A stretch of DNA of 32,924 bases from Spirochaetia bacterium. Lineage in GTDB: Bacteria; Spirochaetota; Spirochaetia; CADAEX01. The DNA is taken from contig JAFXTY010000054.1 in the NCBI GenBank assembly GCA_017535435.1, positions 1 to 32,924 on the forward strand. The letters are read 5' to 3'. The notes below the pieces were generated by a model, which had not been told where the DNA came from, did no database searches, and worked only from the letters and a program-made list of their open reading frames with translations. Position 1 is the first letter of the stretch, and every line of letters begins with the position of its first letter. This document shows, piece after piece, positions 6,980-25,455 of this stretch. A program made the translations under genes and the position numbers.

Positions 6980-7035
6980 GTAATTTATCTTGCCATATTA
7001 ATAACTATATGTAATTTTATTTTCATTCTTTTCTA

Positions 7036-7065
7036 TTGAAAAAATGGCCCCGACTGTTATACAAT
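7036..7065 (+). promoter_or_regulatory. uraA-upp promoter and ribosome binding site that decides the start
   Basis: TTGAAA (7036-7041), an 18-base spacer, then TACAAT (7060-7065); the overlapping TATACA would give a spacer of 16. Transcription should start near 7072. An in-frame ATG at 7044 lies inside the spacer and so cannot be in the message. A strong GGAGG (7079-7083) stands eight bases before the ATG at 7092, which I take as the true start. Confidence 0.65.
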
Positions 7066-23541: not shown

Positions 23542-24474
23542 ATGAAAAAAGTTTACGAATTTACAAAGCTTAGATATATCGCTCCTATCGCATCCCTGAT
23601 TGTCATTATTCTTCTGTTCATCATCACAGGTGCACGGGGTGGATTCAACCTTGGAATCGACTTCCTCTCCGGTCTTAACATGCGGGTTCAGATCAATTCT
23701 TCTGTAAAGGCCGATATCTCTGACATGAGAACTGTCCTTGCACCTGCAGGGGCAACACAGATCCAGGTCGTAGGTGATGCTGCAGACCAGATCTTCAGCA
23801 TCAGAGTAAGAGAGACCGGCGAGCAGACCGGCGTGGCTGTTTCAGATAAGGTGAAGAGCCTTCTTGAGGGCAAGTTCACTGCGGCAAATGTGACTATCCT
23901 GTCATCCGAATTCTCAGGTCCACGGTTCTCCCAGGCCTTGAGTTTGCAGTCTGCATGGCTGATCATCCTCTCGCTGGCCCTCATGCTTGTCTACATCTGG
24001 TTCCGGTTCCGGCTGGCATATGGTCTTTCCTCCATCATGGCACTGACTCATGACGCACTGGTCATGGTAGGTGTTATCGGAGCACTCCAGCTTGAGGTGG
24101 ATGTGACCACAATCGCTGCTGTACTTACAATCATCGGTTACTCTCTGAACGCTACAATCGTTATCTTCGACAGAGTCAAGGAGAACATCATCCTGCTCAA
24201 GGGAAATCCTCTCAAGCAGATCCTGAACACCAGTATCTCCCAGTCACTCTCCAGAGGTATCATCACATCCTTGACAACACTCATCGCAGTAGTTGCCATC
24301 TATGTGTTCGGTCTGGGTGCCATCAAGAACTTCGCATTCAACCTGATAATCGGTATCTGTGTAGGTACATATTCATCCTTCTTCATCGCACCGTCCCTGC
24401 TCTACATCTGGATGGCTAAGATCCAGAAAGTCAAGTTCGAGGGAGATGTGGCAGCTGCCGAAGCTAAGAAGTGA
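23542..24474 (+). CDS. secF: Protein translocase subunit SecF
   Basis: A 310-residue SecF, typical length, with six membrane segments. It follows secD by three bases. The periplasmic domain begins with GIDFLSGLNMRV, a variant of the usual GIDFTGG motif. The transmembrane block contains RFSQALSLQSAW, WFRFRLAYGLSSIMALTHDALV, IGYSLNATIVIFDRVKEN and GICVGTYSSFFIAPSLL, all standard SecF landmarks. It forms the SecDF-YajC complex. A terminator follows about 20 bases after the stop. Confidence 0.96.
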   Translation: MKKVYEFTKLRYIAPIASLIVIILLFIITGARGGFNLGIDFLSGLNMRVQINSSVKADISDMRTVLAPAGATQIQVVGDAADQIFSIRVRETGEQTGVAVSDKVKSLLEGKFTAANVTILSSEFSGPRFSQALSLQSAWLIILSLALMLVYIWFRFRLAYGLSSIMALTHDALVMVGVIGALQLEVDVTTIAAVLTIIGYSLNATIVIFDRVKENIILLKGNPLKQILNTSISQSLSRGIITSLTTLIAVVAIYVFGLGAIKNFAFNLIIGICVGTYSSFFIAPSLLYIWMAKIQKVKFEGDVAAAEAKK

Positions 24475-24496: not shown

Positions 24497-24527
24497 GGGG
24501 CTCTTGACAACAGGAGCCCCTTTTTTT
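24497..24527 (+). terminator. Rho-independent terminator of yajC-secD-secF
   Basis: GGGGCTC (24497-24503), a ten-base loop, GAGCCCC (24514-24520), then seven T. The seven-pair GC-rich stem and T run are convincing. The loop contains TTGACA, which fits as the -35 of the following tRNA promoter. A smaller hairpin (ATTCCT/AGGAAT, 24477-24492) precedes it. Confidence 0.88.
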
Positions 24528-24532
24528 ATATT
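24504..24532 (+). promoter_or_regulatory. tRNA-Ile2 promoter embedded in the secF terminator
   Basis: TTGACA (24504-24509), a perfect -35 in the terminator loop, a 17-base spacer, then TATATT (24527-24532) overlapping the T run. Transcription should begin near 24539, five bases before the mature tRNA 5' end. The same hexamers and spacing recur in front of gap. Confidence 0.7.
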
Positions 24533-24543
24533 TTTTATATAAC

Positions 24544-24617
24544 GGGCCTATAGCTCAGTTGGTTAGAGCCCTCGACTCATAATCGAGTGGTCCCTGGTTC
24601 AAGTCCATGTGGGCCCA
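24544..24617 (+). tRNA. tRNA with CAU anticodon, probably tRNA-Ile2
   Basis: All arms fold: acceptor GGGCCTA with TGGGCCC (one G-U pair), D stem GCTC/GAGC, anticodon stem CTCGA/TCGAG around loop CTCATAA, and a T arm with loop TTCAAGT. The anticodon is CAU. The anticodon-arm and T-loop sequence resembles bacterial tRNA-Ile2, which reads AUA after lysidine modification by TilS, more than elongator tRNA-Met; the distinction is inference. The T stem has one C-U mismatch (second pair). CCA is not encoded, so it must be added after transcription. Confidence 0.88.
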
Positions 24618-24646
24618 AATCTCCTGCCTGTGCAGGAGATTTTTTT
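24617..24646 (+). terminator. tRNA terminator
   Basis: A ten-pair stem, AAATCTCCTG (24617-24626) with CAGGAGATTT (24633-24642), six-base loop, then more T. The stem begins at the tRNA discriminator base. It should end the tRNA transcript before the DUF2400 gene, whose start is only 13 bases further on. Confidence 0.85.
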
Positions 24647-24658
24647 ATTTTTGGTTCT

Positions 24659-25435
24659 ATGACAGTCAAGGAAATATTAGACACAGTCTATGCCGCATAT
24701 CACAAGCCGGAATACATATATCCGGACCCCCTGGCTCCTGTGCGCATTTACCCGGATGTACGGAACCGGGAGGTCGCAGGTCTTATAGCATCTTCCCTGG
24801 CGGTAGGGAGGGTGGATCTGATACTTAAGGCTGTAGACCAGGTGCTTTCCCCCCTGGGACCCGATCCGTCTGAGTCCCTTAAATCATTATCCCTTAAAGA
24901 TCTCCAAAACCAGTACAAGGGCTTTGTATACCGTTTCTTCAAATGCCGGGAGATAGCTTCCTTCCTATATGCCATAGGGGAGGCCCTGCGGCAGTATGGC
25001 AGTCTGGAGGGGCTGTTCATGGAGCACTACAGGAAGGGGCATATGCTGCCGGCCATAAGCAGCTTCCTCTCCTTTATCCAGGAGCATTCCAAGGGGTGCT
25101 GCGGCATACTTATAACCCCGCCGGAAAAGGGGAGCGCCTGCAAGCGTTTCAACCTGTTCCTCCGCTGGATGGTGCGGCAGGACTGTGTGGATCCAGGAGG
25201 CTGGAACAGGGTCTCCAGGCGGGATCTGCTGGTGCCTGTGGATACCCATATGCACGATATAGCCACCCGTCTTGGCTTCACCTGCCGCAGGGCCGGTGAT
25301 ATCAAGACCGCCCAGGAGATAACCGCCGCTTTTGCCCAGTATGACCCGTCTGACCCGGTGCGCTATGACTTCTCCCTTACCCGGCTGGGAATCCACCCCG
25401 ACCTTGATAAAACCATACTCGATAAATTGACATAA
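24659..25435 (+). CDS. DUF2400 / TIGR02757 family protein
   Basis: A 258-residue member of the DUF2400 (TIGR02757) family, found mainly in Bacteroidetes, spirochaetes and epsilonproteobacteria. Recognisable blocks are YPDPLAPVRIYPD, REVAGLIASSLAVGRV, GSACKRFNLFLRWMVR, VDPGGW, VPVDTHMHDIATRLGF and DPVRYDFSLTRLGIHP. The family is distantly related in fold to helix-hairpin-helix DNA glycosylases, but the biochemical function is unknown. ATG 24659 is chosen because earlier in-frame codons run through the tRNA and its terminator. The stop codon lies next to the gap promoter -35. Confidence 0.88.
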   Translation: MTVKEILDTVYAAYHKPEYIYPDPLAPVRIYPDVRNREVAGLIASSLAVGRVDLILKAVDQVLSPLGPDPSESLKSLSLKDLQNQYKGFVYRFFKCREIASFLYAIGEALRQYGSLEGLFMEHYRKGHMLPAISSFLSFIQEHSKGCCGILITPPEKGSACKRFNLFLRWMVRQDCVDPGGWNRVSRRDLLVPVDTHMHDIATRLGFTCRRAGDIKTAQEITAAFAQYDPSDPVRYDFSLTRLGIHPDLDKTILDKLT

Positions 25436-25455
25436 CTACTCGATTATCTTATATT
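25427..25455 (+). promoter_or_regulatory. gap operon promoter
   Basis: TTGACA (25427-25432), a 17-base spacer, then TATATT (25450-25455). Start expected near 25462, with AAGGGAG (25476-25482) before the ATG at 25490. The -35 lies in the last codons of the DUF2400 gene, directly before its TAA. Confidence 0.75.

Follow-up and report, generated by a model that had tools for sequence, protein, structure and literature searches.

A predicted secF terminator hairpin carrying a putative tRNA promoter in a genus of gut spirochaetes

Background

The tufB-secE region contains an inter-operon terminator-promoter overlap, described under the name of 'operon concatenation' (Brandis, Cao and Hughes 2019, via PMC7055797); in Salmonella it affects expression and fitness, according to PMC7055797. 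In E. coli, frd and ampC overlap in such a way that the frd terminator is also the ampC attenuator (Grundstrom and Jaurin 1982, via PMC11838884). Polymerase that has completed termination can reinitiate at nearby promoters in vitro (PMC6978380).

We analysed a stretch of 32,924 nucleotides (the window; contig JAFXTY010000054.1 of assembly GCA_017535435.1) from a Spirochaetia bacterium, in which the intrinsic terminator of secDF and a sigma70-type promoter of a tRNA with the CAU anticodon very probably form one fused element, sharing about 24 bases (Table 1). Judging from the sequence and its relatives, the composite is most likely functional in both roles.

Table 1. Features of the secF-tRNA(CAU) locus, in window coordinates
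Feature	Position	Strand	Basis and remarks
secF, last gene of yajC-secD-secF	23542..24474	+	NCBIfam TIGR00966, 258.7 bits (cut-off 160)
secF terminator hairpin	24497..24520	+	scan and fold; 10-bp stem, loop ACAA (24507-24510)
-35 hexamer TTGACA	24504..24509	+	exact; TTG in upper stem, ACA in 4-base loop
Promoter spacer, 17 bases	24510..24526	+	last loop base, 3' stem arm and six T
secF terminator T tract	24521..24527	+	7 T; the first six close the spacer, the seventh opens the -10
-10 hexamer TATATT	24527..24532	+	promoter scan
tRNA, anticodon CAU	24544..24617	+	ARAGORN
Terminator of tRNA(CAU)	24617..24642	+	internal control; loop varies between G000, G002, G003, G006 and G001

The hairpin and the promoter within it

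The secF and tRNA genes lie on one strand, 69 bases apart, and the hairpin begins 22 bases after the secF stop. Its arms, GGGGCTCTTGACAACAGGAGCCCC and TTTTTTTATA at 24497-24520, form the top-listed terminator in the scan of a 15-kb region; written out, the hairpin is GGGGCTCTTG-ACAA-CAGGAGCCCC, and seven T follow. The region folds better than 200 of 200 shuffled sequences. With a GC-rich stem, a short loop, an immediately adjoining T run and a location 3' of a gene, the element at 24497-24527 has the sequence hallmarks of an intrinsic (Rho-independent) terminator, and is predicted to be a strong terminator of secF.

The promoter, TTGACA-17-TATATT at 24504-24532, is among the two best in the scanned 15-kb region, and physically overlaps the hairpin with its T tract (24497-24527). 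It has the hexamers, the spacing (within 15-19) and the distance to the gene that are usual for sigma70-type promoters of this genome; it scores 11 on a simple 12-point sigma70 match, and its -10 ends 11 bases before the tRNA. The window contains two sequences of the form TTGACA-N17-TATAWT with at most one mismatch, where shuffles predict 0.22. TTGACA-17-TATATT is the sole good candidate promoter for tRNA(CAU) at the locus; the runner-up shares its -35 and has a weaker -10.

An earlier note on this DNA had placed TTGACA at positions 1-6 of the terminator loop. That count works only with an assumed 7-bp stem and 10-base loop; in the minimum-energy fold, T504-G513, T505-A512 and G506-C511 (last three digits of the positions) are paired with probability 0.98 or more, so that TTG belongs to the 10-bp stem and ACA alone to the loop. 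The rest of the proposed geometry agrees with our results: 17 bases through the second stem arm and the T run do lead to TATATT, the span from the first base of the stem to the last base of the -10 is 36 bases, as had been estimated, and, with the tRNA placed at 24544, the start is expected about five bases upstream of it, as predicted.

Three tRNAs with the CAU anticodon are found in the genome, which also encodes TilS. By elimination against the initiator-like and elongator-like sequences, and given TilS, the tRNA at 24544 is probably the AUA-decoding tRNA-Ile2. Further 3' lies a TIGR02757-family gene (24659-25432); a gene with a similar start also follows the tRNA in G005, a related genome, though there the pair does not adjoin secF. 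The presumed gapdh promoter, TTGACA-17-TATATT at 25427-25455, matches in hexamers and spacing the tRNA promoter 923 bases upstream.

Promoters of other tRNA units

Upstream regions of 31 other tRNA units in the genome were scored by the same 12-point match. Promoters of the sigma70 type with a score of at least 8 precede 27 of the 31 units; TTGACA is exact in 18, the spacer is mostly 17, and 8-16 bases usually separate the end of the -10 from the tRNA. Reading through all 31 regions, we found none with the -35 in a terminator hairpin. Promoters of tRNA-His and tRNA-Gln, about 50 bases upstream of the respective tRNA (L020 and L050), have a -35 box that makes up one half of an inverted repeat extending into the spacer (TTGACAAAAAG...CTTTTTTTTTGTCA and TTGACAATTATTTGTCAA).

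Comparison within the genus

The genus is known from assembled metagenome genomes alone, and its seven genomes were compared (G000 is the genome of the window); the relatives that another collection names are Spirochaetia assemblies from gut samples of buffalo, goat, yak and horse. In all seven, the best -35 of the orthologous tRNA(CAU) is TTGACA, starting 38-40 bases upstream. This distance is constant regardless of the setting, whether TTGACA is in the hairpin, follows a separate terminator (G001) or is not behind secF at all (G005).

The same 24 bases form the hairpin in five genomes (G000, G002, G003, G004 and G006), with variation in the bases that precede it and in the T/-10 region that follows. 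The T run has seven T in the window and five in the other four genomes, and the best -10 shifts with it: the spacer is 17 (TATTTT) or 15 (TATATT) in G002, and 18 (AATAAT) or 15 (TATAAT) in G003, G004 and G006. The spacer thus appears to be constrained, not frozen. The earlier note had argued that the stem arm is the spacer, and that both functions constrain the same bases; the former holds, and the latter holds in a more flexible form.

Free variation of the loop over a preserved stem, which the same note had named as counter-evidence, is not seen in these five genomes. For a control, we compared 16 other terminators in homologous stretches of G000, G002, G003 and G006. Loops change in 14 of the 16, including that of the terminator of the tRNA itself, located about 100 bases downstream; of the remaining two, one is comparable in a single relative and the other (L172) is fully invariant. 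The L172 terminator hairpin (7023-7046), with its loop, is identical in all five genomes compared, G001 included. Among the genomes with the identical hairpin, fourfold sites of secF carry 0.09-0.44 substitutions per site, and in 35 shared genes the invariant fraction of fourfold sites across four of these five genomes is 44%. At this level four loop bases free of constraint would all stay unchanged with p ~0.04, so that the conservation of the loop, taken alone, is modest. Coming from one genus, the five fused genomes are one evolutionary case.

The most telling comparison is with G001, where the hairpin is AGGGCTCCTGGAAACAGGAGCTCT and a separate promoter, TTGACA-17-TAATTT, is located between the terminator and the tRNA. 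Three bases of the upper hairpin distinguish G001 from the fused form, and every one of them falls inside the hexamer (CTGGAA versus TTGACA). The predicted energy of the hairpin is -18.1 kcal/mol in the TTGACA form, and -22.2 kcal/mol when the G001 bases are put into the stem of the window; these bases would strengthen the hairpin by about 4 kcal/mol, which suggests that the promoter hexamer has been kept at the expense of the terminator. From this comparison we infer selection on the hexamer; its retention despite the cost to the hairpin speaks most strongly for both functions acting on shared bases.

Origin and distribution of the fused element

In G005 and in a sister genus, tRNA(CAU) is under a separate TTGACA promoter, which suggests that the fusion is the newer state, with the placement of G001 differing between trees. 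The secDF tree and the trees of 35 shared genes disagree on its position; the fused group has a support of 41 on secDF and 84 on proteins, and is absent on nucleotides. In view of this conflict, we do not take the derived status of the fusion as proven.

Within the genus, a pattern scan (TTGACA, then a T run, then TATA) returned other matches, none of which resembles the hairpin-promoter element. We also ran a generic covariance model, consisting of a terminator with TTGACA and TATAAT, on 393 sampled Spirochaetota genomes, scoring 17 candidates per genome, so that weaker cases may escape. Within this sample the window reaches 44.4 bits, compared with 36.6 for the best of the unrelated sites, and no unrelated match is just ahead of a tRNA on the same strand. 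No general excess of such elements was apparent among the candidates scored, with 22 matches to the model against 11 to a control with the hexamer reversed. On this sample, we take the putative hairpin-borne tRNA promoter to be a lineage-specific case. Terminator-like hairpins with an exact TTGACA in the loop and no tRNA behind them are present at four loci of unrelated Spirochaetota (L229, L230, L234 and L243).

Possible mechanism and alternative explanations

At the RNA level, the hairpin and the U run would release RNA polymerase after secF. At the level of double-stranded DNA, the same bases would offer TTGACA and a 17-base spacer to TATATT, and the holoenzyme would thereby start about five bases before the tRNA. 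The most economical reading of the sequences is that two independent functions reside on shared bases, with mild mutual interference at most.

The two functions might also be coupled, with the polymerase that terminates after secF either handed over to the tRNA promoter or blocking it, so that transcription of secDF would tune the tRNA. The in vitro restart of polymerase retained after intrinsic termination (PMC6978380) makes this possible, but G001 and G005 manage without the fusion, so that coupling is not essential in the genus, and we consider it unlikely. Slightly more doubtful is its specific form, a hand-over device in which polymerase released at the secDF terminator would start directly on the promoter of a probably essential tRNA; if it existed, transcription of secretion genes would be linked to decoding capacity.

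The hexamer in the hairpin could be a coincidence, and the tRNA could be made by read-through from secDF and 5' processing by RNase P, as the short distance between the two genes on one strand would allow; however, a strong predicted terminator stands between them, such promoters precede almost every tRNA unit at a similar distance, and G001 and G005 each retain a promoter for tRNA(CAU) outside any hairpin, all of which makes this quite improbable. Marginally less probable still, the hairpin may be kept for another reason, such as stability of the RNA or binding of a protein at the 3' end of secF, with the promoter match incidental. Invariance of the entire hairpin in five genomes would fit this, but the hexamer bases weaken the hairpin, and G001, which has a separate promoter, differs exactly at the hexamer. 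The reading that we prefer is, as before, a fused element with two independent functions.

Comparison with known terminator-promoter overlaps

At this compact natural locus, the folding of the RNA and the recognition of a promoter in the DNA would constrain the same bases. With both fused and separated relatives in existence, the cost of sharing and any effect of termination on the next initiation are directly measurable. Exact-phrase literature searches for promoters located within terminators returned nothing past the known overlap work.

Ordinary sigma70 promoters of tRNAs in the genus use these hexamers and this spacing and stand equally far from the tRNA, but their -35 is outside a terminator hairpin in 31 of the 31 other units examined. 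The frd-ampC overlap is similar in that the upstream operon is served by a single terminator located where the downstream gene starts. There, however, according to PMC11838884, the terminator occupies +17 to +37, downstream of the start of ampC, and affects ampC as well, whereas the secF terminator is upstream of the expected tRNA start and would remain outside the tRNA transcript. The tufB-secE region resembles our locus in that one operon ends and the next begins within a shared region of the same strand; yet about 55 bases separate the tufB terminator from the best candidate for the secE -35 in E. coli K-12, while the -35 of the tRNA promoter is inside the hairpin and its -10 begins in the T run. 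Overlap of terminators and promoters is thus already known, and the secF-tRNA case, as predicted here, is tighter than tufB-secE, with the -35 box being a part of the hairpin.
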